Assembly: GCA_015680905.1 (NCBI GenBank)
Contig: CM027381.1
Location: 90,607,501-90,671,500 of the forward strand
From: Coptis chinensis
Taxonomy: Eukaryota; Streptophyta; Magnoliopsida; Ranunculales; Ranunculaceae
Direction: 5' to 3'
DNA: 64,000 nucleotides
Under the pieces are notes generated by a model. That model saw only the letters and a list, made by a program, of their open reading frames with translations. It did no database searches and was not told where the DNA came from. Shown in pieces: positions 1,244 through 50,448 of the stretch. Each line of letters starts with the position of its first letter. The stretch's first letter is position 1. The position numbers and the translations under genes were made by a program.

Positions 1244-2440
1244 AACAACACTCCCTCTCAAACGTTTCAATAGAAAGCAAGATGGTACCATGAAATATGA
1301 CAGTGACAAATTGTGTTATATGTTCGACTATCTTCTTTAATCGTAAACAACTTCATCCAAGACTCTCTCACACCATAGTCCTTCATGACCCACAATTCAG
1401 CACTGGTTTTATATAGATAAACTGCAGAAAGGTTCCCATCCAACATTGCAACATTAGTGTCAAGAACACTGTCATGCTGACCATTCGATCGGTTGTGGCA
1501 CTCCTCAAAACCTTTGACCTCCAATGTCAAATGCAATGACTAACTTATAAGTATTGTCCAGTGGTTTAGGCCAGTGTCTCGCTCTCCGGTGTTGTATAGT
1601 GTGTTGCCGTCCAATGAAGTGCACCATTAACATGTACTCCCATTTTACTACAAACTCTGTAAGGGATGTCAGGAATACTTGTCCATAATTTACTTTTTAG
1701 TGAATATACTGCAACTTCGGAAGGATGAATATGAGTGGGCTTGCCAAAGCACACAATTTCAATGATCTCGTAATCCTTTACAATTGCACTGTGACCAAAG
1801 CCATATATATACCGTAATGTAATACCGTATACCAACTTACCAAGTATGACTAGGTAAATCTTCGAGACAGGTATTCGGGACAATTTCCCAGTCGACAGAT
1901 TCCATAGGCAGTTGGTGTTGTTCTGATTGACAATGTATAGTAGTCCGTTACAAGAACCCAGCCCAAGTTTTGGTTTCATGTCTTAATGGATAACGAATCA
2001 CTACTTCATCAAATCCTTCACAATCTAATTGAAATATCAAGTGTTTTTTTGGAAGCATGAGTCTAAGATTTTTCTTGTTGTTCTTTAATTTGATTGCTTT
2101 AGATGCATGTATCTCCACAAAAGAAGGTTCTGTGACAAGCCTACATCATGTTTTGGCTACGCACCTAAATCGTAAAAGAGACACAGGTAGTCGTGAAAGT
2201 ATTTCCTCCATGTCGCGTGGGAGGTCATTCTTTGATTTTGACCCCTCTTTTTCTTCTTGTTTCTCTTCACTTCGGATGTCATTCTTTGATTTTGAGCCTT
2301 CCTTTTCTTCTTTTTCCTCTTCAATTAGCTTGTAGGAGGCAAGGTAATCCAGATAGCGTGAACGTATGAAGTATATATAACACTTGCTTAAGAAAAGAAA
2401 CCACTTTTGACACCCTCTACTTCTTCCTACTCTTATTATG
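1244..2440 (-). pseudogene. F-box/FBA-domain protein pseudogene
   Basis: On the minus strand an F-box starts with NDLPRDMEEILSRLPVSLLR (about 2225-2165) and is followed by an F-box-associated domain: LGSCNGLLYIVN, then a tract ending HWTATHYT, then LWVMKDYGVRESWMKLFTI near 1375. Members of this family act as substrate adaptors in SCF ubiquitin ligases. The copy is broken in three places: the conserved Trp after RCVAKT is TGA (2148-2146), there is a frameshift near 1980, and another between about 1566 and 1540. The acidic stretch before the F-box holds an imperfect tandem duplication of EEKEGSKSKND. The start codon cannot be placed; the frame is open to at least 2440. The 3' end runs into the LTR-like repeat, and a second copy of its last 115 bases lies at 402-517. 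Confidence 0.85.
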
Positions 2441-3050
2441 GAAGAGTGTTTATATCGAGTATAGCAAAGGCAAACAATGAAGCAAACCTAGACAAAAGAC
2501 AATGGTTTTTGTTTTGATTAGGAATGGCATATTCTATTAAGCTTTCCTAAAACGTGTCAAAGTCAAACTTTTGCAGTGGATGAATCGAGGTGGTTTTTTG
2601 CTACACAAGCCCAAAGCCCAACCCATGTTTTTAAACAATTGAGTAATTGACACCATACCTTCAGCTCTGTTTCGGGGCATTAGCTGTTGCGCTTGTACTC
2701 ATCAAATTGTTTCTCTCCTTGGACATGATTGAAATGTGCGAATGTGATCTAAATCGACCCAACGAATAATATGGGCGACATGTTTGGGCATAAACATTGC
2801 AGACTATGGCCGGGCACATTTATTGCCGCTATCAACAGTAACAAAATGCTTGATCGAAAAAAAAATGTGAACAGAAATGTAGGCTACTTAATATAAGATC
2901 AAATAATACCATTATTCAGGCAGAACGTCGTACCAAGACATCGATAACACCGTAACAAAGCCAACTGGGTGAGCACTCCCTAACTCAACTTCAAGCACAA
3001 AGTAAAAGACAAGAATAAAAGCTTAACCTAGACACTTCATTATAACACTA
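2441..3050. other. Intergenic, nothing recognised
   Basis: I see no coding potential, structural RNA or clear repeat here. It lies between the F-box pseudogene and the 3' end of the EC1-like gene. Confidence 0.5.
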
Positions 3051-3058
3051 ATGACGTA

Positions 3059-3451
3059 CTAAACTACACCAGGAGGTGACTGCAGAGGAGTCTGAACTGG
3101 TCCTGTAGGAGACGCTGATGTTGTGTCGCAGTAGCCATTAAGTATATCACCCTCTTGGGATGTGAAACCAATTGAAGTAAGCATACCAGGCCAGCAATTG
3201 CGAGTAATGATACGTATTGCGCGGCAACATGGGATGCCTAGATAGGCCTCACCATCCAAGAAGAAAATAATAATCTCACTGGTGCAAGACTTCAGCTGTA
3301 ATAAGGCGTTCCAGCAATCTCCTCCCCCCTCGCCGTAGAGCCTAGCCTTAAGGTTGTGCCCTGGCCTAAATAGCGGCTTGTTGGCCGATGCAGTAATAGC
3401 TCCCATGATGTATGAAATTGCTAAAAGAAGAGCAAATATTTTGAAAGCCAT
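3059..3451 (-). CDS. EC1-like egg-cell-secreted cysteine-rich protein (prolamin-like)
   Basis: This intronless frame encodes 130 residues. Residues 1-23 form a signal peptide (MAFKIFALLLAISYIMG start, hydrophobic core). The mature part has six cysteines at 46, 56, 75, 76, 86 and 108, in the spacing of the prolamin-like/DUF1278 family. Two blocks are diagnostic: CWNALLQLKSCTSEIIIFFL and CCRAIRIITRNCWPGM, followed by GFTSQEGDILNGYCD. Arabidopsis EC1 proteins are stored in egg-cell vesicles, secreted on sperm arrival, and needed for gamete fusion; that role is inferred here from family membership. The single exon, the length and the short proline-rich tail fit the family. A TATA box (TATAAATT, minus, 3522-3515) lies about 65 bases before the ATG. 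The frame is intact, with no neighbour of related function. Confidence 0.92.
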   Translation of the reverse strand: MAFKIFALLLAISYIMGAITASANKPLFRPGHNLKARLYGEGGGDCWNALLQLKSCTSEIIIFFLDGEAYLGIPCCRAIRIITRNCWPGMLTSIGFTSQEGDILNGYCDTTSASPTGPVQTPLQSPPGVV

Positions 3452-3514
3452 GGAAAGATCAAATGAGTTGGAGATTGAGCAAACATGTGAAGGATGTGAT
3501 TTCCCGGAATGGTG

Positions 3515-3522
3515 AATTTATA
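3515..3522 (-). promoter_or_regulatory. TATA box of the EC1-like gene
   Basis: TATAAATT on the minus strand, about 65 bases upstream of the ATG at 3451, leaving room for a short 5' leader. Confidence 0.55.
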
Positions 3523-3879
3523 AGGAAGAGCCGGAAGATAAAAAGACATCCGTTTTAAAGAACTCCATATAAGTTGCATACCTCTCTAATTATATGTAGA
3601 AAGCGTAGGTTACAAATTATACATCTTCCTCTCCTGCCATTCCATGATAAGAAAATGAAAAGTTGTACTGTACTTGTATCATCTAAACAAGGCCATCCAT
3701 GGACTTATTTGGTGGTGCACCTAACGAAAACTTCCGTGTTTGCAAGGCTCATTCTTTTTGTTCAATTTCATTTTTCTGGACATGGTTTTCTACTTTTCTT
3801 CATTATTAACTCCCAAAGAAAAAATTAATTAATTAATATAAATAAAACAATATAATAATAAACGTCATCACAGTACTAG

Positions 3880-3915
3880 CTAGATCAACAATCCGTCGTA
3901 ACCTATTACCTTGAT
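3880..3915 (-). mobile_element. Left part of a Cassandra-like LTR, split by the outer hAT
   Basis: The last 15 bases (acctattaccttgat) continue directly into gttgtctgcattttgcc at 15323 once the hAT is removed. The joined sequence matches the second Cassandra-like copy near 21977-22010 at about 26 of 32 positions. The LTR limit on this side is not clear. Confidence 0.5.
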
Positions 3916-3968
3916 TAGTGGTAGAGCCAGAAAATTAAGTGAGGGTGAGCCACCCAGATAGGGGTGGC

Positions 3969-5508
3969 CAGTGGCGGAGCCAGAGGAATTTAAGTGAGCG
4001 TGAGCCACTTAGAAACCAAACATAAAAAAAAATAAAAAAAATAAAAAAATAAAAATACACTAATTTTTTTTTAACTAAAAATTCAAACCCGATCACAAAA
4101 CAAATATATTTCGAACATAAAAAAAATCATATAAAATGATTGTAATAAATGTAATATAAAAAAATAAAAAAATAAAAAAATAAAAAAATCTAAACAAGTA
4201 CTTCTTCATAGTTGTTCTCGGCGGCCTTCTTTTTTGTCATCCTTATTTATTTTTTGGAAGTGTTGCAAGATCAACTCGGTATCAATGCTATCAAAAACTT
4301 CTTTTTCAATATATATTATTAAATAATCATTCAACCATTCATCCGCCATCCCGATTGCATAGACAATTCTTTATGATATTCATAGCAAAAAATGCCCTCT
4401 CCACGGTAGCAGTAGCAATAGGTAAAATTAGCGTCAACTTAATCAACAAATACACAAGTGGGTACACAATGTCTTTCATCGTCTCAACCATTTTTTTTGT
4501 TAGACTGCTAATTCCATTTACTTTATCAAACTTAGTATCGGAACGCACATCAATGATATAATTCTCAAGCTGATCCGCTAATTTCATTTGATCTATTTTT
4601 GAAAAACCATCGAGATAAAGTCGAGCAAAATGAATCAACTTTTGTTTATCGAAAGCAGCAAACGACTCACAACCCGCTTTGATGTAGGTTGTTCAACACC
4701 ACCATCCTCAGTTTCTTGGTAACTTCGCTTTGAAGAGGATCCTACTTCAACACTAACAACATGATCTGTGTTACTAGTTGGTTGGGCGGGCAACGACTTT
4801 TCTTTGATCAAATATTTTAACATAGTTATTTAAACAATTAAAATAAACCACCAATCAATTTAATTGATATTGCATGAAATTAAAATAAATCATCAATAAT
4901 GTGCACAAAATAAAATAATAATCACAAACATATAAAAATCTAAATAATATGGTTTAGGAATAAGTACAAAAAGACGACAAAAAATTAAATAATATAAGGG
5001 TTACCTAGTTACCTCCACAAAATTGGTAAGTGTAAAAGTGCTTGTTTGGCTAGAAGAGTAGAAGACTTAAATTTTAATATAAAGTAATAGAGAATGAAGG
5101 AGAAGAGAAATAGAGTAACTCATAGGGTTTTTTTTTTCTTTCTTATTTTTTTAATGAATATGAGAGAATTTCTTTGTTTGGGTTTATATATGGGTTTGCT
5201 TTTTCCGTGGAGTGATTTGTTGAGTTTTCTATTTTCTTTTTTTAGTTTTTTTGGTACTTTGTTCTTTTTACTACATCAAGTACTGAAATATATAATACAT
5301 CAGCACAGCACATGACCTTTTGTTTAGTTTCTACTCACTTGTTTCTACCTCAAGTACGTGTGAGTACGTATATCAGTGGCACATGGGCCAATATTTTTTT
5401 GCTTGTTAACTTGTGCTATTTTGTAATTAATTGATAACTTTTTTTTTTTTTTGATAGAGTTGAGGGTACGCCAGGGTGTACCCTGGGCCCCCCCTGGCTC
5501 CGCCACTG
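3969..5508 (-). mobile_element. Young hAT deletion derivative with perfect TIR and TSD
   Basis: The 15-bp TIR CAGTGGCGGAGCCAG (3969-3983) and CTGGCTCCGCCACTG (5494-5508) is perfect. The 8-bp TSD ggggtggc is perfect (3961-3968 and 5509-5516). The element is 1540 bp and holds the two ends of a TTF-type zinc-finger hAT transposase on the minus strand, with the catalytic middle deleted. The intact TSD and TIR make it one of the youngest insertions in this nest. Confidence 0.93.
4200..4823 (-). pseudogene. hAT transposase remnant: N-terminus joined to C-terminal dimerisation domain
   Basis: The N-terminal frame (4823-4635) begins MLKYLIKEKSLPAQP and has the SSSKRS-type basic stretch of TTF-type zinc-finger hAT proteins. 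The next frame (4638-4339) begins at AFDKQKLIHFARLYLDGF and carries the hAT dimerisation signature YPLVYLLIKLTLILPIATAT followed by VERAFFAMNIIKN. One further frameshift near 4345 separates a tail reading RMADEWLNDYLIIYIEKEVFD. The RNase-H-like catalytic core between the two parts is missing, so it cannot transpose by itself. A dimerisation-only protein could in principle interfere with active transposase, but there is no evidence of expression. Confidence 0.82.
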
Positions 5509-5715
5509 GGGGTGGCAATGGGTCATGTTGGGTCGGGTTCGTATTGTGTCATATTCGGGTCACGTGTTAGGAGAGCAAACCCAAACCCGACCCAATTACT
5601 AATCGTGTTAAGTTTGTCAAACCCAAACCCAACCCGCATATGTAACAGGTTACCCAACGGGTGACCCGCTAAGCCAGTGGGTCAATTTTGGATCGGGTTA
5701 ACAGATAACCCGTAA

Positions 5716-5965
5716 GTTCTATTTTTTTTTTTTTTTTTGGATAAAGAATATTTATTAATCTAAATAAGAACTTGCAAAAGTGCGCAGAGTTGTTGAAGCA
5801 CATGCATCTGCTAAACGCTTGAACCAAACAAGTGAAACAACCTGTTACCCAAACAAAAAACATAACCGAACTAGAAACAACAACCATGCATGTCCAGTTT
5901 ATCCACTTTGCTACCTCGTGGGCAAACCTATTATTAAATAAATGCAAATATTATTGTGACTTTGG
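5716..5965 (-). mobile_element. 5'-truncated LINE-like tail
   Basis: A run of 18 T at about 5719-5736 on the plus strand is a minus-strand poly(A) tail. Just upstream on the minus strand the frame reads NNRFAHEVAKWI, which resembles the RNase H end of plant LINE ORF2 proteins, followed by an A/T-rich 3' part. A clear TSD was not found. Confidence 0.5.
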
Positions 5966-6565
5966 CGGCCCGTTGTTCTCTTTATATAATTGAGACTAGG
6001 GTAAGGGTTCAATGTTAATGTGCGTGATAATATATTTTATTGAATGAATCTATAATATTCTATATCTTTGGATTGCCGGCTTATCTTTCTAAATCTAGTT
6101 GATCATTTTTGTTTTAGTATTTTCTTTTTAAGTAATTGGGATTATGAGATTTAATAAAATTAGGAAACATATATGTTTAAGGACTTAAAACAGGTCATAC
6201 AGTCACGGGTTGATGACCCGACCCATTGACTTCGGGAACTAATCGGGTATACTAACGGGTTACCAGGTTAACATGTGTGACCCTAACCCAACCCATTTAT
6301 TTGATCGGGTTTGGCGGGTCAACCTTTAAATGACCCAAAAGCTTTTTTTCCAACCCAAACCCACTAATTTTAAATTGCCGGATTAGGGTGTCGGGTTAGC
6401 GGTCGGTACAAAACCTGCCACCCCTACACCCGGACAACCAAAACATTAAAAAAAAAAAAAAATCATTTTTTAAACAAATATTTATTTCAAACCTAATAAA
6501 AAAATTCATTATTTTTTCTTTTAACTAATATTTCAACCACCATCCTCAATATTTTGGTAACTTCA

Positions 6566-7759
6566 TGATAACCGTAAAAATAATAGAATCCTGAATATTA
6601 ATGTTAACAACACTAATACGTAATCCTACCGTTCTTACGTTTAAATCAATTCTTCTTACTCTCAAAACATAATCATGCAATATAATGAGTAAGGATTCGT
6701 TCCACTCTTAAACCTCAAGACTTAAACAAATTCAACTAATCAAACCCAAAAGGAACAATGGTGAGAGTAATGATTTGATGTGAAATTTCTATTCTACCAT
6801 TCCCAACAATTGAATCTAAACAAGACATAATATAAATATTTGAACTTTATTTGTTTAAACTCAATTCGAAACTACTCATGCAATAATTGAATTAAACTAA
6901 TAATGACAAATAAGTAAATCTAAGGATTTAAGCTAATAAATAAATGAAAATGAAACTAGATTATGGAGAACTAATTAACTTTATTTATCTAATAGAACAA
7001 TAAGAACAAGATATGATTGAATGAATAACAACTATTTTATTTATCTAATGAATGATATTCAATGATTTAAATAACTAATCTAAAACAAAGAATGAAACTA
7101 ATTAATGGAATGAAAACTAACTAATTAACTAATCTAGATCTAACTATCTTTTTTCTAACCCTAAACTCCATTAACATTAGCTTCCTAACCTAACTGCCTT
7201 AACAAAGAGTCAAGCTTTTGTTTTTATACTTCCAGATCCAAAAATCGTGCATGGGCTTGGAGCCATGTTTTGGGCCGGAAAATCGGGCCCAAAACCCAAT
7301 TTCTTTAGTCCAAAATGGGCTCTTCAGCTACAGTTGGCTTCGACAGATGTTTCATCCACTTCTGCTCCTCTGATTAGGCCAAAGCTTGGACCATTGGAAA
7401 GCTCTTTCCGAGCCGGTCATTTTGACATAAGATACTCCCAATTCAGTCCGAGTCAAAGATACGCCCGGAAGTCTCTGCGACTTGTAATTTGTTTACGCCC
7501 GTGTTGACTTTTCAGCTTTTGACCGGGCTTTACAAAGGCTTTGCCTCCTTGAATCTTGGCCTTTATTCACAAAACTCCTTAGCAACCGACCTTTGCTCCT
7601 TTATCTCGCTAAAGTGGCACATTTATGCACATAATAGACTTTGAAGCCCGAAATGCATAAAAACACGTGAATCGATATTAACTCTTAATTATTACTCACA
7701 TAATTGGTCTAAAAGTATGATTGTTAAGGGGTTAAAACTACAGTTTTGGGCTCTTATCA
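6566..7759 (-). repeat. 3' LTR of the gypsy element
   Basis: This is 1194 bp bounded by TGATAAGAGCCC (minus, from 7759) and CGGTTATCA (minus, ending 6566). A TATA-like GTATAAAAAC (minus) lies near 7232-7222. The part from 7759 to about 7225 matches the other LTR; the rest does not. Confidence 0.75.
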
Positions 7760-7775
7760 AACCACCCCCAAACAG

Positions 7776-10740
7776 CATTTTGCTTGTCCTCAAGGAAATA
7801 TGAGAAATTAGAATAAGTGACCAAAATGGAGTTTCTATCTACGTTTATTTGAGTGCGATTGCATTGACCATATGCAACAAGGCTTTTAAACCACTAGGAA
7901 TTCCCTAGTGGATGAGTTATAACCTCGTGAGAGTTTTCGATTGAAGGTACTCACAAACTTCATCTATACTACAACGACTAAGAAATAAAACTATTGTTTC
8001 CTTATTTATGTCTCAATTATCTATACATCTCACTAGCAATGAATACTGAGAATAATCATGTCAAAACCTAAGCTAATATATGCATAATAATCAATCATCT
8101 GAATAAACATATATACAATGAGTAATGCTATGAAATCACGATGTGAGGTCCTTTTGAAACTTTGGAATAAGCGTCCTTAAGTAGGTTCTCACATAAAAGT
8201 CAAGACAAAAATCACTCGATTTTTCCACTCAAGTTTTGCTACTCTAGTGTGCGGTGGGCATACTTTACCTTACAATCTCAATGACACACAAGGAAGCCTG
8301 AAGTTGATCAAACACATCTACCACTTAATATCCCACTAACCTATTCCTAATTGAGCTAGAGGTCTTTTTTATTAGGTGTTCAAGGGGATTAGGAGATGGT
8401 TTAAGAAGGAAGGAAATGGATATTCAAAAAGGCAAGTCTGAGATAATAGAGTCTTCATATTATGTAACTAGAGAAAACCTTGTTATTTACTTTTGCTTCT
8501 ACACTTTGTTTCCATCCTTAGCCATTTTTTTTTTTTCTTTTTCTTTGACTTTTTGACTCCTTTTTATTCTATTTTTTGGAGTTTTTATTTTATTTTATTT
8601 TTTTTTTTTCTTTTCTTTGGATGGAAACTTCTTTTTCTTTATTTTAAAAGCAATTAACTAACTTTGTTTACACAGGTTTTTCTCTTCTTCTTTCTTCCTC
8701 ATTCTATTCTCAGACTTATCTAAATTGGGTAGGTTGAATTTTTTTATTTTGTTTTGTTTTGTAACAGGGTAAAGGATTTGTGGTTTATGAAAGGGCTAAT
8801 AAAAGGCTCAGTGGGGCGACTAGCGGAAAATATACTTAGGTCAGAATTTCTAGCTATATCGATCCAAAAAGGGCCTAAATTCTCTCTTAGGACATGGTAT
8901 AATGGTCAAGCAAGTGGACGTGTGATTTCTCTATTCGGAATATACTTCTCCCTTGTGTCATTTCTCAAATGTTTCACTCATATAAGACTTTAGGCTATAT
9001 TCTCACGCGAGGATTTGTAGAATAAGTACTCTAGCCTAGATTTGTAAACTTCTTGCCAAACAATCATAGATACTCATGTAATATATTTATAGATAGATGC
9101 AAAGATTATTACCTACATATTAACCTAAGTTTCTAAAAACTATTCTAATACAAAAAGCTCATTGAGACTTCTAGATTATTAAGAGCATAGAGAAAGAAAC
9201 AATACCAATATTCCTAAGTGTATAACATAAACTTTTTTTTATTTTTATTTTTATTTTTATTATTTTTAAGACAAATAATACGTAATATACAACCTAATAT
9301 GTGCTTAACATTTACATCATGTTTCTATACCACCCCAAACAATTTGGGAGGAGAAGGGGTTCATGAAACAATTCAATAGCACAATTAAATTATGTAACTA
9401 ACTAATTTTTATAATTTTTAACATTTTATAAATAAAAGTCGTAATTTACATCCTAAAAGTGTCTAATTTTTGCAAATGTTTCTACCCCACCCCCAAACAA
9501 TCTAGCTTTGTCCTCAAAGTGTAAAGAGATAAGGAAAGAATTTACCATAGAAGCGTGGCAAAAAATTGGCAAAGCACCTATAATGAAATATTGTAAAGAT
9601 TATTTGAGAATATGAAGCATAATTAAACTGGTACGTACTAACTAACACAAACTCTACTGGAGTAAACATGACAGGCAACATGATTTGAAATAAATACCAA
9701 AATACGCCACCCCCAAACAAAATTGGAAAACTCTTTTTAAGTTTGAAATTTTTGTTTGGCCTATACTCCAAAAAGTTGGTATTGAACGAAACTTGGGTCT
9801 TTTAAAGTCAGATTCCCTAGACTTACTAATATATGTTTATGTTTTTATTTTATTTAGTTTTTATATGTTTGATTTTTAGAAAAATGAAACAAAATTACGA
9901 TAAAGAAATAAAAATGAAACTCACTCCATAGAGAAGCACTACTCAATCCACGAGAAAAAGTGCAAGAGATAAATCGTGTGAGTCACATGAAGCGTAGACT
10001 AGGAATCCGACACTTACAACCACTCACTCAAAAGGAGGGTCCGGTTGCCTTAATGGTGCACTCCCATAACATAAGATTGGAATGGAGTACACCGAAGAAT
10101 AAAATGAGTCTTTTATAGTCGGATACTTTCGAGACTTTATCTAATATATATGTATTAAAATGCGGTTGACCATATATCAACAATCGAAAAAGTTGTGGGT
10201 CTTTCCACAAATAATTAACATGGAATGCACCATCAAAACAGAATTAAGCACCAAGATTTCCTATGGCGTAGCTTAGTGGAATGAGAGCAAAGCCTTATAG
10301 ATCTAAAACCTAATCGAGCATACAGTTTCTTCTTTGTCCTCCTACGAAGGGGATGCCAAGTAAATGAGCGTTGGAAAATTGATGGTTGTGGAAGATCATT
10401 AGGATGTGGATAATTTTGAGAAGGGAAAAATGGAAAAAATGAAAAAAGTGTCGGTGGCTTGTCCTTGGGTGTTAATTCTTCACCGGTTGGTTTTAGATAG
10501 TTATGAAGCATAGGAGAAACGCCTTGATGTCAAGTACAAACTCAATGGTTCTTTGAAAAGGTAGAGGGCGAGGAACATTCGTGATGGAAGGTGAATGAGT
10601 GACATGAGGATGTGAGGTGGGTGAATGGTGTTCAACTAGTGTTCTTAGGTTTATATCATCGAGGAGGCCTTGAGATATGCAAGACATTCCTCAATAGGTG
10701 GGTAAGAAGAATCCTTTTGGGATAGAGGGCTGAAAAATTC
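7776..10740 (-). other. Gypsy interior without recognisable pol
   Basis: This is the 3' third of the gypsy element. It includes a long T-rich tract (8520-8640) and no reverse transcriptase, RNase H or integrase motif in any frame. The scattered short frames here are not supported as genes. Confidence 0.5.
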
Positions 10741-10749
10741 TTCAAAATG

Positions 10750-11640
10750 TCATGGCGTCAAGAGATGAATGGATGTCGATAATAGGAGAGAACTTCGCTG
10801 AGGTGACAAAGAAGGGTTGCAAAAGAGTAGAAGGAAATCCTCCTTGATGTTATCTACGTCTAGGGAGTAGAAATTGTGATCCTTGTCTTCTTCCATAAGA
10901 GGGGTATCTACTAGTGTGGGGACTAAAGTGTCACCCGCACTAATGTGAGGTACAAAACTCTCAATGGACTTCACTTCCCTTCTACGAGCAAAACCTAGTT
11001 GTCCCTGTTTTTTGTCTAAACATGTTAACTTCTGAGAAAGATTTCCAAAAGAAAGAGTCATTGAGCCATCCCAACAATTGATTTGGGCATTGGCGGTTGC
11101 CAAGAAAAGGGCCCTAAGATGATGGGAATGGAATCATGAGCAACCACGTGTCAAGAATAACAAAGTCAATTTTGGATAGTAAAAATCACGAACTTTAACG
11201 AGAATATTTTCAACTACACCCTTGGGATACTTAATAGAACGATCGCCTAACGCAAAGTCATTTTGGTTGGTTGAAGTTTTGTTAGACCTAGTTGTTTATA
11301 TAAATAAAAAGGGAGTAAGTTAACACTCGCCCTAGTCTAATAAAGCGGTTGTTATGAAGGTATCACCTAAGGTGCATTATCATGATGGGGCGACCGGGGG
11401 TCCTTGTACTTAACAATTAGTTATATTAGGATAAAGAGGGATATTGTTTAGATTAAGAATGCTTCGTGGGGTATGTTGGTTTTCCTCTTCTTGGTACCAC
11501 AACTCTTTTAGAAACTTAAGCGTGTCGAGGTAGACTTTTATAGCTTCTAGAAAAGGTAGGTTGATAGTTAGATTTTTAAACACTTCCCTAATCTCATCAA
11601 AATTCTCATCCTTTTTAGACCACAATTAGTCTCTCGGGAT
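10750..11640 (-). pseudogene. Gypsy gag-pol linker and aspartic protease remnant
   Basis: On the minus strand, REVFKNLTINLPFLEAIKV (about 11590-11530) resembles the linker between gag and protease in Athila/Tat elements. Downstream, broken frames read FVILDTW, then GPFLATANAQINCWDGSMTL and SFGN (about 11115-11040), the C-terminal flank of the protease domain. The Asp-Ser/Thr-Gly catalytic triplet is not readable in the damaged stretch near 11330-11290. No reverse transcriptase motif follows. Confidence 0.68.
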
Positions 11641-12659
11641 CTGATGGGTTATCTTTATACCTAATATGAGGGGAACATATTTGTTAACCGTTGTTTTTAT
11701 CTTTTATCACTTCGAACTAGGTTTCCATATTGGAACTTCTACAGTGTAAGTCTTCACTTTCTATTATTGGGTCTTATAATGTTTTCCCTTTTGGTTGTGG
11801 TTTAACCGGTACTTCTACGGTTGTAGGGTATTGGTTTCTATTATAGTATTTGGTATGGTATCATTTTTAGTTTGCGGGTAATCTTTAGGCATAGTCACTT
11901 GGTTATCAACTACTACACCGAGCGAAGGGTAGTATTCACTGTAGGTCCCCTTGGTTTATATTACCATTATAGTAAATATTGTTTATTTCAAAAGCGGTGT
12001 TTGTTGACTTAGGATTAGTAATCGCTTGACTTGGAAACACTTGGTTTGGTTATTATTTTGGTTAGAAGACATGTCAATAACCTTTTGGCACAAAGACGCA
12101 TCATTTGCATCGTTTGTTTCATCATATTAGAGTTTTGATCATCTTGATCTTTCATCAAGTTGGAGTTTTGTTGCATAATTTGATTTTGTTTCTCCAACAA
12201 GGTCACTACTACTTTGTCGTAGATGGTTGTAATGGAATTAAAGCTTGTTGGCGTTCATGTCTTGATGTTGATAATTCGGGTTATGGGTACTAAACCTCTA
12301 TTCCGGTCACCTAAGTTCCCTTGTCCTTGATGTTGAGTTAACTAGTTGGCGTGTGATGGTTGTGGTGGTGTTTGTGCATAGACAAGAGGACAATAGAAGT
12401 CGGAATGCTCAAGACTACAAATGACATTACAACGAGTAGAGTTAATGTTCATGACCTGGAGTGGGTTGTTGTTGAGCAGAGATGGCATCTACCTTTTTAG
12501 TGAGGGCATCGATAAGAGTTTTAAGCTTCGGTATCATGTTTAACCTCAAGAGAAGAAGGAGAGGCCCGGGAGGAATCGTTACCTCCCCAATTGTTGTTCT
12601 TCTTAGATTGATCTTCTAAGAATTTATAAGCCTCAAGGCTTCTTTACTAAGAAAACTAC

Positions 12660-13216
12660 CCCGGTCATGATATTTAGAACCTCCTTACGACGATGTAAAG
12701 CCCTTGAAGAAGGCCACGAACAAAGCGTGTCTTTTCGCAAGATTATGATGCGGGCATTCAATGAGAAGATCGATTGAAGCGATTCGTGCTCTGAAAAGGA
12801 TTCATGAGGATTCCGATTTCAAGAAATGAATCTTGTGAAGCATTTCATCCGTCTTGGTGGTGGGTAAAACTGTTCCATGAACAATTGAACAAGTTGAGCC
12901 CGTGAGTCCACGAAGTTTGGCGTTTGGGCGGTTAACCAAGACGCCGCCTTTGTCGGCTAGGGTGAAAGGAAACACCCTAAGTTTAACTTGATCTGGACTT
13001 ATTTAGGATGATGGAATGTAGTGAGAACTTGGTCTATCCTAATGCTTTGTGTAAAGGCTTCTGGGTGGTCAAAAACCATGAAAAACCGGTAACAAGTTAA
13101 ATATATTAGGGGATTCGAAAAATCCCCCACTAGGTCCGCAAGAACGATGCGACTTAGGGCCATCGTTTAGGGCTTTATAAAAATCGAGGAGAAAGGAGTC
13201 TCTTGTTCTTTAGCCA
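12660..13216 (-). pseudogene. Gypsy gag remnant
   Basis: The minus-strand reading begins MAKEQETPFSS near 13216. It continues through FPFTLADKGG, a tract near TVLPTTKTDEMLHKIHFLK, and RARIASIDLLIECPHHNL, which matches the retrotransposon gag (capsid) domain in order. Several stop codons and frameshifts break it, for example a stop after FIKP and another after LKSESS. Confidence 0.72.
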
Positions 13217-13696
13217 TTGATGCAAGTGTAATGTGTGAAATTCTAGATAGGCATGTTGTATTTATTTCTACGAAAAACAAGCCTAATTATACTAGAATTA
13301 AAACTCCTCGACGTAAGAAAGAGGGTGGAAGAAGGAGTACTGAATGCCTCCTTGCTACGCGTTTGAATAGCGTCTTGTATCACGCGATCTCGGTGTATTT
13401 AACAAGTTAGAAACACTTGAATAACTTGAAGAAATAGAAATTTGAACTAACCCTGTGAAAATCGGGCATTTTCACTTAAATTTTCGAGGTGAGTCGCTCT
13501 GTTTAGCAAAAGGTGCGCTCAAAGTTTTCGAATGTCCGTGTTTTTGGGCGCTCGGTCGGGCTGGTCGGCTTAGTCGCGGGGGTTTCAATTTTGCGTTTTT
13601 TGCCGGATGGCGCTTCGGTTTGAAGCGCAGTCGCTAACTTGTGGGTTTCGAATTTCCGGTGTTTTGGCGGTCGCCGTGGTTTTCGATTTTTTAGGC

Positions 13697-14228
13697 CTTT
13701 TATACTTCGGATCCAAAAATCATGCATGGGCTTGGAGCCATGTTTTGGGCGGAAAATCGGACCAAAACCCAATTTCTTTAGTCCAAAATGGGCTCTTATT
13801 CTGATTGATTGGCCGACAGATGTTTCGTCCCTTCGCTCCTCCTCGATTGGGCCAAAGCTTGGACCATTGGAAATCTCTTTTCGGGCGGTCATTTTGACAT
13901 AAGATACTCCCAATTCGGTGGTCCGAGTCCAAAGATACGGCCTTCGGAAGTTCTCACGACTTGATCGCGTGTTGACTTTGACTTTTGGCCCAGGACGCTT
14001 TACAAAGGCTTTGCCTCCTTGAATCTTGGGCCTTTATTCACGGAACTCTTTAAAGAACCGAACCTTTTGCTTTTATCTCGCTAAAAGTGGCACATTTTAC
14101 ACATAATAGACTTTGAAGCTGAAATGCATAAAAAACGTGAATCAAGATTAACTCTTAATTATTACTCACATAATTGGTCTAAAAGTATGATTGTTAAAGG
14201 GGTAAAACTACGTTTTGGGCTCTTATCA
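13697..14228 (-). repeat. 5' LTR of the gypsy element (U3 part only recognisable)
   Basis: The sequence matches 7225-7759 along its length (shared tracts such as gcatgggcttggagccatg and atttctttagtccaaaat). The match stops at the TATA-like motif near 13700. Below 13697 the sequence is G+C-richer and unrelated to the rest of the 3' LTR, so the R/U5 boundary cannot be placed. Confidence 0.72.
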
Positions 14229-14233
14229 CTTTG

Positions 14234-15314
14234 CTTTGAGGAGGATTCTATTTCAACATTACCAACATTTTCTATGTTTGGCGGTGGTTGAGTGGGCAAC
14301 GATTTTCCTTTGATCAAATACTTTAATATAGTTGTTTAAACAGTATCTAAGTAGCAATTAATTAATGAAATCTCTTACTTTGAATTTCAATGAAAAAATA
14401 AAACCATCAAATTTAAACCTACAAAAAAAAAAAAAAAAAAATTAGAAAATTTACTTAAAACTTATAGTGGCGTCCTAAGTATAAAAGAGAGTGAGAGACC
14501 GAGGTCAATAGTGAGTGGTTTTTGGTTTTTATCTATTTACTTTTTTAAAAGAAAAGAGTGTGTGAGCCTGTGAGGTTAATTTTTGGGGAGTCTACTTTTT
14601 ATTATTATTTTTGGGGAGCAGCTATGCAGTAACCGGTTACTGGGCTGGGAACCAGTACCGTATAAAACTTTGTACCATGTGTCCCGAGTTAATAGCTAGT
14701 TAACTTCCGTTTTTTAGTTTTTATTTTATTTTCTAATTGAAACACAACAAACCCCATGAAGGCTTTTAATAAAGAAAACCCAAGATGAACTTTGTCTTCC
14801 ATCCCCTCGTCCTCTAAAACCCACACACAGAATTCATTAATATAAATCAAATAGCCAAAAACCACAGAAATTACAAACCCACTTTCAGCCGTTCAAACAA
14901 GATGTGTGTTTGTATAGAAAGGATGGTACTGCTATATATAACAGTATTCTAAACAAGATGGGTGCTTCAACTAGTTACCATTGATTCCAGATTAAATGTT
15001 ATAGCCTCAAGCTTCTTGTTATCTGATGGCATATGAGAACCGGGTATGCTTGATGATTTGTGTTGATGCCTCCATTTTCGTTTCAGCAGTTGCGGGGTCT
15101 GGGTTACTATTTTTGGGAGAGAGAAAAAGTACTTGAGGGGTTTGGGTTACTGTTTTTGGGCTGGGTTTGGTTCCCTTTTTCGTTTTTTTTCTTTTCTATT
15201 TGCCCCCTCGGGTTTTAGGTTTTGGTTACGACGATGCGGACAAATAGTATTTTTTTTTGGGTGGAAAGTAAGGGTGCGCCAAGGCGTACCCTGGCCCCCC
15301 TAGCTCCGCCATTG
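14234..15314. other. Right part of the outer hAT
   Basis: The first 100 bases match the N-terminal transposase region of the younger hAT (minus). The end, gtgcgccaaggcgtaccctgg then CTCCGCCATTG, matches the younger element's 3' end. The middle contains a short palindromic motif gcagtaaccggttactg near 14626-14642 and no gene. Confidence 0.7.
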
Positions 15315-15322
15315 ACCTTGAT

Positions 15323-15495
15323 GTTGTCTGCATTTTGCCGCTGCAGACCTCTAGTGGAATTTTTATCACGATGAGACTTCTCAGGAGGTCACCATCTCGA
15401 AACTATGACCACTGAACACGCTTAAGTGCATAATTCTTACCAACACGCAGCGACGCAACCAATAGTGATATTACAAATAATTAGATGTATTTGGA
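15323..15495 (-). mobile_element. Cassandra-like TRIM LTR with embedded 5S rRNA-like segment (copy 1)
   Basis: On the minus strand 15440-15373 aligns with plant 5S rRNA from its middle to near its 3' end: TTAAGCGTG, then a TCGAGATGG-TGACCTCCTG block and GAGAAGTC. Cassandra TRIM elements are known for carrying such 5S sequence with the internal Pol III promoter inside their LTRs. No second LTR or internal region is attached, so this is a solo LTR. Its left part lies before 3916, split off by the outer hAT. Confidence 0.72.
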
Positions 15496-15614
15496 TCTAG
15501 GGCCAGGGGCGGATGCAAGATTCTCCACAAGGGGGGGTTATTAGCCTTAATTGCCACTACCATTTGGTTTTTGAGAGGCGGTGGGGGTGGGGGTGCACTA
15601 CACCATAACAGTTT

Positions 15615-21959: not shown

Positions 21960-22168
21960 CCCATGTGTTATTACAACATATTACATTAATGTTATCTACA
22001 CTTTGCCGTTGTAGACCTCTTGCAATGGGGAAGTTTTATCCCGACGAGACTTCTCAGGAGGTCACTATCTTGAAATTACGCTCATTGAACACGCTTAAGT
22101 GCATAATTCTTACCAACCCGCAGCCAATATTGATATTAGTATATTACGGATAACTAGACTTTTCCAAC
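21960..22168 (-). mobile_element. Cassandra-like TRIM LTR with 5S rRNA-like segment (copy 2)
   Basis: The minus strand starts TGTTGGAAAAGTC at 22168. The 5S-like part is at 22112-22046 (CACTTAAGCGTG, then GTGACCTCCTGAGAAGTC). It is about 80 percent similar to copy 1 over 150 bases. The far end probably lies between 21850 and 21960 but is not certain. No internal region or partner LTR is attached. Confidence 0.7.
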
Positions 22169-44251: not shown

Positions 44252-45592
44252 TGTTGGTTTTATCTCTCATATGAAGAGGAAAGGATTTTATTAGCAAGAC
44301 CCGCGTCCAGATTGGCCTTGACCAAAGTGTGACCCGCGCCCATGCCGTAGAAGCAGTGTTCGTGATTCCGAACGAAATCTCAGAATTCCACTTAATATTT
44401 CGGTTTTTGGGAAAACCAAAACAGCATCGAAATCCAAAATATTCGATATGTGCTGAGGGGTATTATTGTAATTACGGTTAATTATTCGAATTAACAACTA
44501 CTAAAACATATCTCAATCTCTAACCCTAGCTTGACATCTCCAGCCAAATCTCAAAATTTTACCACAAAAGTCTATTGATCTTTAAATAAATATGACGAAA
44601 TGAAGAAAAACTAATACTAGACGATGAAATTGAAGAGGAGATTATGGAATTGAAGAAATATGGAATGGAAAATTAGATAACTTGAATAAGAGATGATGAA
44701 ATTAAGGAAGAATGTTGGACATTAAGGATCTCATCGACTTCTTTTTCACAATCAAGTACGTTCACCTTCTTCTCTCACTAGAGATGATACCACCATTAGA
44801 GAATCCATGGTAGTGGTGGTGCTCTTTTAAGCTCCCACCATTATTTTGTTGAAGAAATAACATTAAAAGGTTAATCAAAGCCTAATTAAAATGGTCGATG
44901 GTGATAACCAGATCTATAGAATCCAACGGCCCAAATGCATTTGGGAACCTTATTGATTTCGACACTGTTGGCGAAATACCTAATGGAATTCCGGGTTTTC
45001 AACAATTTAGAATTCCGATAATTTCAAAATCATGAACTATGCATAGAAGACCTCCAGTACTTTCAGCACGACCCGCGCTCAGATTGGTCTTGACCCGAGC
45101 GCGACCCGCGTCCAAGTCTAATTTCGTGGGCTTCGCTACAGTAACCGCAAAATTTGTTTTTTCCTATAAAAACAAAATCAAGGTTTTGGAAAACGAGGAC
45201 TAATACAAGCAAGCAACCAGAGAGAGAAAACCCAATCTTGAAAGCTATCAAAATTGAGAGAGATAACATTTACAGAGAGATAACCCTGTAAAGAGATAAA
45301 AGTGATCTAGTAAGGTGAGAGACTGAAAGGAGATTGTAATCTTCTTTCCCACTTTATAAAGAACTAGCTCTTGTGAAAGTAGGTATCATTGGCTGAACCA
45401 CGGCATATCTTTGTGTTGTGGTTTGCTTTTATTGCTTTACATTATTATTTGTTGTTAATAGTTGTTTAGCGAGTTAGGCATATTAGTATAGGTTGTAGTT
45501 GATATTTAGAATTTGTCTGGAGTTGAATTGTGTTCAAATACAAGTTATCTGTGTAGTGGGGGAATCGATTGACATTGGTATAAACCCCAACA
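44252..45592 (+). repeat. 5' LTR of the copia element, with a MITE inserted
   Basis: This is 1341 bp against 628 for the 3' LTR. The extra DNA is at about 44366-45040. Outside it the two LTRs align well (for example cgtgggcttcgctacagtaacc) but with many substitutions, so the insertion is not recent. Confidence 0.9.
44366..45040. mobile_element. MITE inserted in the copia 5' LTR
   Basis: The ends AGTGTTCGTGATTCCGAA and (inverse) ATAGTTCATGATTTTGAA are similar. The flanks gtagaag and atagaag suggest a short TSD. The gaattccg/cggaattc-rich ends are shared with two further copies near 59540-59735 and 60220-60400. Confidence 0.55.
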
Positions 45593-45594
45593 AG

Positions 45595-45607
45595 TGGTAT
45601 CAGAGCC
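45595..45607 (+). promoter_or_regulatory. Primer binding site of the copia element
   Basis: tggtatcagagcc, complementary to the 3' end of initiator Met-tRNA, two bases after the LTR. Confidence 0.92.
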
Positions 45608-45727
45608 TTTGGTTGGATTAGCCTAGAGTGTTATCCAAATCTTGGTTGGAAGGTGTTTGACAAAACTCCTGAGAGAAGATTTGAGTTTAAATAACTTGTA
45701 GAGATAGACAAGTCCGTGAACACTCGC

Positions 45728-46460
45728 ATGACGAGTCTGAATAGGAAGAACTACACCATCTGGAAAGCCAAGATGGAAGACTTGTTATACTGCAAGGACT
45801 TGGCACTAACCATTGAGAATGGGGGAGTAAAACCGAAAAAAGGCGATGAAATGAGGTCGAAAGAAAAAGCTTGACAGAAAAGCGATTGGATACATTCGAC
45901 AGTGGATTAACGACAGTGTCTTTCACCATGTGTCCCAAGAGACTACAGCCTTCATCTTGTGGAAGAAACTTGAAGTCCTTTATGAGAGGGAGTCGGGTGG
46001 AAACAAAGTGCTGGTCGTTAAGAAGTTTGCCGACACGAAGTACCAAGAAGGTTCTTCAATATCTGAGCATCTTAACGAATTATAGAATACCATCAATCAG
46101 ATGCATTTGATGAAGATTGATTTGGGAGACGAAGTTGAAGCTTTGTTTCTATTAGGCTCTCTACCCGAAAGTTGGGAAACATTAGCAGTCTCTTTACACG
46201 GGGCAGCTAAGGATGGAATTGTTACCATGGAGATGGCTACCACGTCTTTGTTGAATAAGGAGACTAGAAGGAGTTCAAAAGGCAGCTCCTCTCACTCAGA
46301 GATCCTTTTTATAGAGAAACGGGGGAGAGGTAAAAGTAGAAAACCATCTTGTTCTAGAGGTGATGGCAGAAGTAAATCTAGGGGTGAAGCTAGAACTCCT
46401 AAGGCAGAGAGGCAATGTTACTATTGTGCCACCAAAGGTCACTTCAGATATGAGTGAAGA
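45728..46460 (+). pseudogene. Copia gag remnant
   Basis: The reading starts MTSLNRKNYTIWKAKMEDLL, a copia gag start. It continues with LLGSLPESWETLAVSL (UBN2-type capsid) and ends in a zinc knuckle CYYCATKGHFRYE whose last Cys codon is a stop (TGA). Stops and shifts break 45870-46085. Confidence 0.88.
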
Positions 46461-46779
46461 ACACTGAAGAGGGATGAGAATAATAACCGCGGTACATGAA
46501 GACATGGTGCGCAGGAGCCGAAAAACACAGAGAGAGATACTACTGCACTAGCCTAAGCGACATAGTCGCTTAATTGTGTCGGATTGTGGTGTGTGGCCGT
46601 CTTAGTACCTCATGTCGATACGAGAGTGGGTGATAGATACGAAGCATCATATCACGCCACACCGCATTGTGGGATTCTTCACTACTACACACCGTGGTGA
46701 ATATGGTGAAGTAAGGATGGGTAACGATGGCGCCTCAAGATTATAGGCATTGGAGATGTTCATGTTGAAACCAATGTCG

Positions 46780-49771
46780 GCTACACCTTGACACTCAAGG
46801 ATGTAAAACATGTCCCTGACATACGATTAAGCCTAATTTCAGCTGGGAAATTAGATGACGATGGCTTTGTAAACTCGTTTGGTAACGGGGCATGGAACCG
46901 AAAGCAGAGGTTCCATCAGAGCGGCCGGAAGAAAAACTTGCTCTTTTACAAAATACAGGCTAGTTTGTGTAAAGCAGAAGTGAATGCGGCAGAAGAAGAA
47001 GCTTCCTCCGAACTATGGCACAAGAGACTGTGTCATATAGGCATAAAAGGGATGGAAGTTCTTGCTAAGCAAAAGGCCTTGCCAGACATCAAAGGTACAC
47101 ATTTAAATACATGTACTCATTGTTTGGTAGGAAAGCAACACGAGTGTCTTTCCAAAGATTCCCGTCTCACAGAAAGGACATTGTCCTTGAACTAGTGCAC
47201 ACAGACTTATGTGGTCCTATAAAAGTGAAGTCCCACGGGGGAGCTTCATACTTCGTGACCTTCATTGATGATGCATCAAGAAAGATATGGGCCTATAGTC
47301 TGAAGACCAAGGATGAAGTACTTGGCGTGTTTAAGAAATTCCATAGCATGGTAGAAAGAGAGACTGGGAAGTTGTTGAAGTGTATTCCCTCAGATAATGG
47401 GGGTGAGTACATTGGGCAGTTTGAAGAGTATTGCCAGAGTCATAGGATTCGTTATGAGCAGACCGTTCCCAAGACACCGCAATAGAATGGAATAGCAGAG
47501 AGAATGAACCGTACCATTGTAGATAGGATGAGATGTATGCTATCTCACTCTAAGCTACCTAGAACCTACTGGATAGAAGCAATGCGTACAACCATGCATG
47601 TGATCAATCTATCGCCGTCAAAGCCTCTGAATAGTGATTATCCAGAGAGAGTATGGTCAGGTAGAGATGTTGATTATGGATACTTGAGGGTATTTGGGTG
47701 CAGGGCATTTGTGCATATTCTGAAGGATGAGATATCCAAGTTTGATGACAAAGCCAAGCAGTGCATTTTTCTGGGTTATGGAGATGAAAAGTTTGGTTAC
47801 AAACTCTATGATCCGATTAACAAGAAGGTAATCCAAAGTCGAGATGTTGTGTTCTTGGAAGACCAAACCATAGCAGACTTTGAGGAGGGTGAGAAGCTAC
47901 ATGCTTTCACCAATGATCTTGTTGATTCAGAACCAGAAGTTCCTACTGTGAAACGTGCAGAAGGCATTGAGAATGCAGAGAACCATGAGCTTGAAGCTCA
48001 TGATGAGAATCCTATTGCTCATGATGGGATAAAACCTATTGGTATAGAAGATGCAGATGAGATGCATGAACCACCACCAGAGCAAGCAGAAGTGCATTCT
48101 CTTGAGGCACTAACAGATGGGGCAAGGAGGTCAGAGAGAGAGAGACTAGCTTTTAACTGCATCCACCACATATATGTGCGTCTTCTACTATCGGATGGTG
48201 GAGAACTTATGTACTATCAAGAGGCACTTGAAGGTACGACAAAAAGAAAAGTGGTTGAAGGTCATGCATGACGAGATGGATTATTTGCATAAGAATCACA
48301 CTTATGAGTTAGTTGAGAAACAGCAAGAACGAAAAATTCTCAAGAATAAGTGGATATACAAAGTCAAGCATGAGGAGAACAATCCTCACCCAAGGCACAA
48401 AACTCGCCTTGTTGTGAAGGAATTCGGTCAAAGAAAAGGGATTGACTTTGATGAGATTTTCTCTCCTATAGTGAAGATGACTTCTATCCGAGTGGTATTG
48501 GGTATGACCACAAGTATGACCCTAGAGGTTGAGCAGCTAGATGTGAAGATAGCTTTTCTTCATAGAGACCTTGAAAAAGATGTCTACATGGACCAGCCAG
48601 AGGGGTTTGAGGTCAAAGGCAAGGAGCACCTAGTATGCAAGCTGATAAAGAGCTTGTATGGGTTGAAGCAAGCACCGAGGCAAATGGTACATAAAGTTTG
48701 ATTCATTTACGGGCGGCAAAGGATACAAGAAGTCCGCTTCGATCATCATTGTGTGTTTGTTCGAGAGATTTCCAAATGGGGATTTTCATAGTGCTATTGC
48801 CAGATATGGATGATATGTTGATAGTTGGCCCAAACATCAACAAGATATCCAAGCTGAAGAAAGACTCGAGTAAATCCTTTGAGATGAAGGATTTGGGTCA
48901 AGCAAAGCAAATACTTGGGGATCTGGATCACTCGTGATAGAAAGAGTGGGAAGTTGTGGCTTTCTTAAGAAAGCTACATCGGAAGCGTGTTGAAGAGATT
49001 CAACATGGATCGCTGCCTACCGGTTGTTATCCGGGTGGCGGTTCATGATGACCAAAGAGATGTGTCCAAAGGGGGAGCATGAGCAGAGTCGGATGAAAAA
49101 GATTCCTTATGCATTTGTAGTAAAAATTTGATGTACGCGAATGGTGTGTACAAGACCCGGATATTGCTTTTCGCCGTTGGCGTTGTAAAGCCCGTCACAA
49201 ACCGGAGAAAGAGCATTAAGAAGGTGTTAAGTGAATATTGAGATATCTCAAGGGCACTTCCAAATCGTGTTTGTGCTTTGGTGGAAGTAAGCCCTTACTT
49301 GAAGGCTACACTGATGCAGACATGGCAAGTGATGTTGACTCGATGAAGTCTACCTCCGGTTATCTTGTTACTTTTGCAAGGGGAGCAGTTTCTTGGCAAT
49401 CAAAGTTGCAAAAGTGTGTTGCTCTCTCCACTACAGAAGCCGAATATATTGCAGTCACTGAGTGTTGCAAAGAGTTGCTATGGATGAAGAGGTTATTCGA
49501 TGAACTAGGGCTAAAGCAGAAACAATTTGTAGTTCTATGTGACAGTCAGAGCGCCATCCATTTGAGCAAGAATCCGAATTTTAATTCTAGATCCAAGCAC
49601 ATACACGTGCGTTATCATTGGATTAGAGAAGTACTCGAAGACAAGCATTTGTGTATCGAGAAGATCCATACTGACAAGAACGGGTCGGATATGATGACCA
49701 AAGTCTTACCAAAAGGTAAGTTTGATGTTTGTTGTGATATTGCCGGAATGGCCGCACTCTCCTCCTATTGA
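46780..49771 (+). pseudogene. Copia pol remnant: protease, integrase, RT, RNase H
   Basis: Protease flank VKHVPDIRLSLISAGKLD (46801 on) is followed by the pre-integrase zinc-binding ELWHKRLCHIGIKGM...CTHCLVGKQ. The integrase core LVHTDLCGPIKVKSHGG and IPSDNGGEYIGQFEEYC is interrupted by a stop (tag, 47483-47485) in PKTPQ-NGIAERMNRT. RT motifs are NKWIYKVKHEE, EIFSPIVKMTSIRVVLGM, QLDVKIAFLHRDLEKDVYMD and a damaged active-site box DMDDMLIVG near 48805, where family members have YxDD. RNase H contains GYTDADMASDVDSMKSTSGY and ALSTTEAEYIAVTECCKELL. Between about 48940 and 49230 the frame is scrambled. Confidence 0.92.
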
Positions 49772-49807
49772 TTTGGAAATTGCATGGAGGTATCCCCCTC
49801 ACTGTTT

Positions 49808-49820
49808 GGGAGGGGGAGAT
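49808..49820 (+). promoter_or_regulatory. Polypurine tract of the copia element
   Basis: gggagggggagat, directly before the 3' LTR. Confidence 0.88.
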
Positions 49821-50448
49821 TGTTGGCTTTATCCCTCACATGAGGAGGAAAGGATTTTATTCTACGTGGAAATGTCAGAGCACGACCCACGTCCAGATTG
49901 GTTTCGCTGGCCAGCGACCGCCACCATGCCGTAAGACCTCCCACTTTTAGCGACGACTGGGCCAGATTTGATCTTGACCCGAGCGTGACCCGCGCCCAAG
50001 TCTAATTTCGTGGGCTTCGCTACAGTAACCGCGAAATTTGTTTTTTCCTATAAAAACAAAATCAAGGTTTTGGAAAACGAGGACTAATGCAAGCAAACAA
50101 CCAGAAAGAGAAAACCCAATCTTGAAAACTATCAAGATTGAGAGAGATAACTCTATAAAGAGATAAGAGTGATCTAGTAAGGTGAGAGATTGTAATCTTC
50201 CTTCCCACTTTATAAAGAATTAGCTCTTGTGGAAGTAGGCATCATTGGCCGAACTACGATATATCTTTATGTTGTGGTTTGTTTTTACTGCTTTACATTA
50301 TTATTTGTTGTTAATAGTTGTTTAGCGAGTTGGGAATGTTAGTATAGGTTGTAGTTGATATTTAGAATTTGTCTGGAGTTGAATTGTGTTCAAATACAAG
50401 TTATCTGTGTAGTGGGAGAATCGATTGACATTAGTATAAACCCCAACA
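49821..50448 (+). repeat. 3' LTR of the copia element
   Basis: 628 bp, TGTTGGCTTTATCCC to CCCCAACA. The region around 50046-50058 (ctataaaaacaaa) holds the likely TATA box; the same motif occurs in the 5' LTR at 45165. Confidence 0.93.

Follow-up and report, generated by a model that had tools for sequence, protein, structure and literature searches.

A nest of four transposable elements occupies positions 3908–15322 of a 64,000-nucleotide stretch of the Coptis chinensis genome (contig CM027381.1 of assembly GCA_015680905.1, C5:90,607,501–90,671,500; the entire stretch is referred to as the window), and it is almost certainly a sequential nest generated by successive insertions of these elements. 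The outermost element is a short hAT transposon, which contains both an element with TAGGGGTGGCA ends and a long terminal repeat (LTR) retrotransposon, and a second hAT element is located 10 bp inside the terminus of the TAGGGGTGGCA element. These four insertions had been claimed in an original prediction made from the window alone, and for each element both the ends and the target-site duplications (TSDs) are present where they were placed (Table 1). It had also been predicted that the flanks joined after the excision of each element would align to uninterrupted family members; such matches were found elsewhere in the same genome (936 Mb in 116 contigs), from which all related copies analysed here were drawn. 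Empty sites and uninterrupted relatives support the proposed layering: the outer hAT was inserted first and the inner hAT was inserted after the TAGGGGTGGCA element, and the LTR element and the TAGGGGTGGCA element could have entered either way round.

hAT elements move by a cut-and-paste mechanism and generate 8-bp TSDs. The two copies of ACCTTGAT that flank the outer hAT are identical (8/8) and represent the only plus-strand occurrences of this sequence in the window (two more are found on the minus strand); a match of all 8 bp at a position fixed in advance has a probability of 1.5e-5. The ends of the outer hAT are short terminal inverted repeats with 3 and 2 mismatches to the hAT terminal 15-mer. 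When up to three mismatches are allowed, this 15-mer occurs five times in the window versus 0.24 times expected, and four of the five occurrences correspond to termini of the outer and inner hAT. The site of the outer hAT is empty at C5:79.64 Mb, where window positions 1954–3915 and 15315–15589 are duplicated: a single ACCTTGAT is present, and the joined flanks yielded an alignment score of 680 versus 309 for the right flank alone. Because this duplicate, located ~11 Mb away, retains the pre-insertion site, most of the history of the 11.4-kb nest is readable from one genome, and the nest thus provides a clean worked example. The site is also empty at C9:1.06 Mb (locus L033), where the variant CCCTTGAT is read once; the case for this locus is based on the BLAST rows and on the reoriented letters. 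At this locus, a copy of the LTR family found in the nest is present within ~41 bp, to the left of the empty site.

The outer hAT is interrupted only in the window among the copies compared. Three relatives besides the window's own copy are nearly full length, at 91, 91 and 88% (they lie on C7, C9 and C2), among the 70 matches listed from the 40 scored of 314 candidates, and all three fetched sequences are uninterrupted at both inner insertion points. In these relatives, the joins at the LTR-element site scored 221, 192 and 214 (85–119 for the halves), and those at the TAGGGGTGGCA site scored 128, 82 and 117 (39–65 for the halves). The exact 8-mer CACCCAGA is present in one of the three relatives, and its deciding A is conserved in all three. 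These relatives also bear on another possible history, in which the outer element arrived with some or all of the inserts already inside, as a composite unit similar to double Ds. The two hATs are in the same orientation and have ends in common, their left ends are only 53 bp apart, and a single move of the outer element after its filling is conceivable. However, the three closest relatives fetched contain neither insertion and no filled copy was seen, and we consider an arrival as a composite unit highly improbable.

For the TAGGGGTGGCA element, the terminal string alone is the weaker evidence: three matches with at most one mismatch are present in the window, where 0.56 would be expected, and this number was reached in 3 of 100 shuffles. 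It is the family copies that carry the case. Among the 29 other loci fetched (40 of 615 candidates were scored), the terminus was found within two mismatches in every locus, and 28 are unbroken across the site at which the inner hAT is inserted in the window. Of the 28 loci with an end found (one further locus was without it), 19 are flanked by TSDs matching at 8/8 positions and five by those matching at 7/8 positions. The 11-bp inverted ends of the element, together with its 8-bp TSD, are those of a hAT element, suggesting that it is a probable member of the hAT superfamily, although this assignment is based on TSD length and end structure. No coding capacity was seen in the copy in the window.

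The inner hAT served as a further reference for the joints. Aligned to it, the flanks joined across the TAGGGGTGGCA element scored 79 (47 and 37 for the halves), and those joined across the LTR element scored 159 (44 and 118). Sliding the former joint, which lies in an A-rich stretch, by +1 and +2 gave scores of 84 and 79, and sliding the latter by −1 gave a tie at 159. Therefore, the joints are fixed to the base by the TSDs, not by the scores.

The inner hAT retains the first transposase exon, which is unbroken, and a putative remnant of the hAT C-terminal dimerisation (hATC) region, whereas the outer hAT retains the first transposase exon only; the two thus look like different deletion derivatives. 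In the inner hAT family, 40 of 480 candidates were scored and 29 other loci were fetched, 14 of which yielded both ends; the TSDs of these matched at 8/8 positions in 10 loci and at 7/8 positions in one. The prediction that a hAT had re-entered its own relative holds insofar as the two hATs belong to the same broad family, but the entry is indirect, because it is the TAGGGGTGGCA element that the inner hAT entered. A recurrent targeting of TAGGGGTGGCA elements by the inner hAT was also considered and rejected, as blastn searches found no TAGGGGTGGCA element at any of the 29 other inner-type loci. These two findings together provide no evidence of self-targeting. One of the 29 other TAGGGGTGGCA loci (L060) contains a diverged piece of the hAT family nearby. 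In the viral contigs scanned with the hATC remnant, no relative was confirmed.

LTR elements are integrated as a DNA copy and generate short TSDs. The LTR element of the nest has LTRs with TG..CA ends (TGATAA..TTATCA), and the two LTRs share 85% identity over 559 columns. At the place matching its short TSD, CTTCG is read in the inner hAT and in all three of the fetched outer relatives, and each of the two TSD copies in the window is thus one CpG transition away from this sequence. The family of the left LTR is present in many copies. Of 11,420 candidates, 40 were scored, from which 45 matches were listed. Counting the one in the window, 37 of these matches span positions 1–1194 at 92–100% and four are partial matches at 74–85%; five pairs of matches have starts 8.96–9.07 kb apart. 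Compared with one family copy on C2, the element in the nest is without ~0.85 kb of the leader and 0.66 kb of the LTR, with ~0.12 kb unmatched between them. The distal parts of the two LTRs do not align, and an origin of the LTRs from different elements had been considered; this idea was replaced by a deletion on the basis of the comparison with the C2 copy.

Several observations weigh against the history described above. The TSD copies of the LTR element agree in only three of five bases. TSDs agree at four or fewer of eight positions in 4 of the 28 TAGGGGTGGCA loci, and no right end was found in 15 of the 29 inner-family loci, with a further three showing agreement at only 1–3 of 8 positions. 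Both ends were found by the script in only one of the three outer relatives, with a TSD of 7/8. The joined-flank alignment at the C9 empty site gave no signal (29 versus 20), but it was run with the strand in the wrong orientation and is not valid. The LTR pair, with a Kimura two-parameter distance (K2P) of 0.053 [standard error (SE) 0.011], is nominally more diverged, by approximately one SE, than the flank duplication expected to predate it (0.044, SE 0.006 for the left flank and 0.043, SE 0.013 for the right flank). This excess could derive from CpG decay in silenced repeats or from gene conversion between the duplicates. Finally, the third insertion had been described as a gypsy element. 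It is indeed an LTR retrotransposon with a decayed TSD, but none of the 31 pieces translated from the minus strand of positions 7760–13260 and 38 amino acids or longer matched a Pfam retroelement family (thresholds of 0.1 in the first search and 1 in the others). A piece of the C2 family copy contains a Retrotrans_gag domain (E=1.5e-11), which is usual for gypsy elements.

The right part of the LTR element (12282–14228) is unusually rich in 1–3-bp indels relative to the left LTR and the family copy. The LTR pair differs by 35 gap events versus 26 substitutions, compared with 8 versus 31 in another LTR pair in the window; the right LTR has 14 private indels, compared with 2 for the left LTR and 3 for a C9 copy; and 42 gap openings are present in 1,333 columns between the LTR element and the C2 family copy. 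Such an excess would be in line with an assembly chimera, in which the nest, or the part of it formed by the LTR element, does not exist in the organism. However, the excess was seen only in the right part of the LTR element, where relatives were available for comparison, and possibly reflects a consensus error of the assembly or decay, and four TSD pairs that match, together with matching ends and two empty sites, would be unexpected in a chimera. A chimeric origin is therefore extremely doubtful.

The divergences agree with a nest formed by successive insertions in the order given above, although they do not alone prove this order. The K2P to the closest copy compared is 0.061 (SE 0.008) for the outer hAT (three copies), 0.054 (SE 0.008) for the TAGGGGTGGCA element (four copies) and 0.027 (SE 0.004) for the inner hAT (five copies). 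Barring gene conversion, the divergence of the flanks should limit the age of the outer insertion, and the nest should be younger than the flank duplication (K2P 0.044). At substitution rates of 7e-9 to 1.3e-8 per site per year, a value of 0.044 would correspond to ~1.7–3.1 million years and that of 0.027 to ~1.0–2.0 million years.

The following course of events may be proposed. A short non-autonomous hAT, which had ends similar to those of Tip100 and already bore ~485 bp of foreign sequence, would first have entered a non-coding segment that is duplicated in the genome and lies upstream of a prolamin-like gene, with duplication of ACCTTGAT. The 920-bp non-autonomous element with TAGGGGTGGCA ends would then have entered the outer hAT with an 8-bp duplication and, before or after this event, the LTR retrotransposon would have been integrated by retrotransposition into the remnant transposase exon of the outer hAT with a 5-bp duplication. 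The LTR element would later have lost ~1.5 kb around the 5′ LTR and the leader by deletion. The TAGGGGTGGCA element would itself have been entered later, 10 bp inside its terminus, by a 1.54-kb hAT that is a deletion derivative from the same broad family as the outer one. The DNA transposons were presumably moved by cut and paste through the action of transposases supplied in trans. Nothing beyond successive insertion is needed to explain the nest.

Table 1. Positions of the four nested elements, their parts and their TSDs in the window
Feature	Positions	Strand	Remarks
Outer hAT (host of the nest)	3916–15314	− (strand of transposase exon remnant)	Termini TAGTGGTAGAGCCAG / CAATGGCGGAGCTAG
Outer hAT, own pieces	3916–3958, 6435–6560 (TSD to 6565), 14234–15314		
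Outer hAT TSD, left	3908–3915	+	ACCTTGAT
Outer hAT TSD, right	15315–15322	+	ACCTTGAT
~485-bp stretch in outer subfamily	14619–15107 (bounds approximate)	−	Flanked by 12–13-bp direct repeat
TAGGGGTGGCA element	3959–6426	No strand	920 bp without inner hAT (3959–3968 + 5517–6426); 8-bp TSD
TAGGGGTGGCA element TSD, left	3951–3958	+	CACCCAGA
TAGGGGTGGCA element TSD, right	6427–6434	+	CACCCGGA; 7/8 versus left copy
Inner hAT	3969–5508	−	1,540 bp; identical 15-bp ends CAGTGGCGGAGCCAG (15/15)
Inner hAT TSD, left	3961–3968	+	GGGGTGGC
Inner hAT TSD, right	5509–5516	+	GGGGTGGC; 8/8 versus left copy
hAT C-terminal dimerisation region remnant	4339–4692	−	Pfam PF05699, E=0.0042, 17.3 bits (below curated cut-off of 21.4)
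LTR retrotransposon	6566–14228	−	7,663 bp; in first transposase exon remnant of outer hAT
3′ (left) LTR	6566–7759	−	1,194 bp, full length
5′ (right) LTR	13698–14228	−	Truncated; 531 bp align with left LTR
LTR-element TSD, left	6561–6565	+	CTTCA
LTR-element TSD, right	14229–14233	+	CTTTG

Transposon nesting of this kind is well known, and the nest represents a well-documented but ordinary case that alters no general idea about transposons. hAT-in-hAT nesting is already in print: in maize, Ds inside Ds has been published and termed rarer than LTR nesting (PMC3260210). The nested Ds and double Ds of maize resemble the nest in that a hAT lies inside a related hAT and in that Ds is interrupted by LTR retrotransposons (PMC3260210). 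They differ from it in that the inner hAT described here is housed in a third element, itself inside the outer hAT, and we found no evidence that chromosomes are broken here. Given the common ends and orientation of the two hATs and the short distance between their left ends, a transposase might conceivably pair one end of the outer element with one end of the inner element, and the nest might then act as a composite or chromosome-breaking unit upstream of the prolamin-like gene; we regard this as a very unlikely prospect. Both hATs resemble Tip100, a hAT of Ipomoea purpurea, in their 8-bp TSDs and in their 11-bp end, which reads CAGGGGCGGAG in Tip100 and CAGTGGCGGAG here (10/11 positions; PMC12511174). 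However, Tip100 is a 3.8-kb functional element (PMC12511174), whereas the hATs in the nest are short and without a whole transposase, and the likeness concerns the ends and TSDs. The insertion of an LTR element into another transposon has its counterpart in nested plant LTR retrotransposons, although that study concerns LTR elements in LTR elements (PMC6911290) and the host here is a DNA transposon.

The ~485-bp stretch is present in the outer hAT of the window and in its three relatives, and both of the two distant relatives fetched are without it; it is probably an older, foreign sequence carried by the outer subfamily. A 168-column match on C36 (80%) has the same short peptide end, which suggests that the stretch is probably the last exon and 3′-untranslated region of a host gene, acquired in a Pack-hAT-like manner. 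Two peptides of the stretch yielded no Pfam match. Pack-hAT (Pack-TYPE) elements are likewise non-autonomous hATs with sequences resembling host gene DNA (PMC8903248), but the stretch described here is short and is a candidate capture.

The nest lies upstream of the prolamin-like reading frame, 457 bp from its first ATG; this frame is open, encodes 130 residues on the minus strand (3059–3451) and matches PF05617 (E=6.1e-18); we take its product to be EC1-like. The nest-free duplicate at C5:79.64 Mb contains a copy of this frame with a different C-terminus and with one cysteine replaced. The two loci offer a rough natural comparison between a prolamin-like copy with the nest 457 bp upstream and a copy without it, although the reading frame of the nest-free copy is altered.

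The right flank of the nest (15315–15490) has seven matches in the genome, the window's own included. Positions 15367–15437 aligned to a plant 5S rRNA sequence with a score of 54 (best of 300 shuffles, 33), and positions 22044–22110 did so with a score of 55 (28). Cassandra-type LTRs are 5S-bearing (PMC10853983). No 5S match was detected with Rfam in the window at E ≤0.1 or in positions 15250–15600 at E ≤5. Because of this result and of the small number of genome matches, the flank was identified as a low-copy duplicated segment, and its interpretation as a high-copy Cassandra-type LTR was rejected. A relative at position 21983 of the window had likewise been considered as an empty site of the outer hAT; it is weakly supported, as 0.07–10% of the window k-mers are as good, depending on length and scoring, and it was superseded by the C5 duplicate.

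Elsewhere in the window, another LTR retrotransposon is present at positions 45047–50448. Its LTRs are 88% identical, it contains long open frames, and one of these frames matches a retroviral polymerase SH3-like domain.

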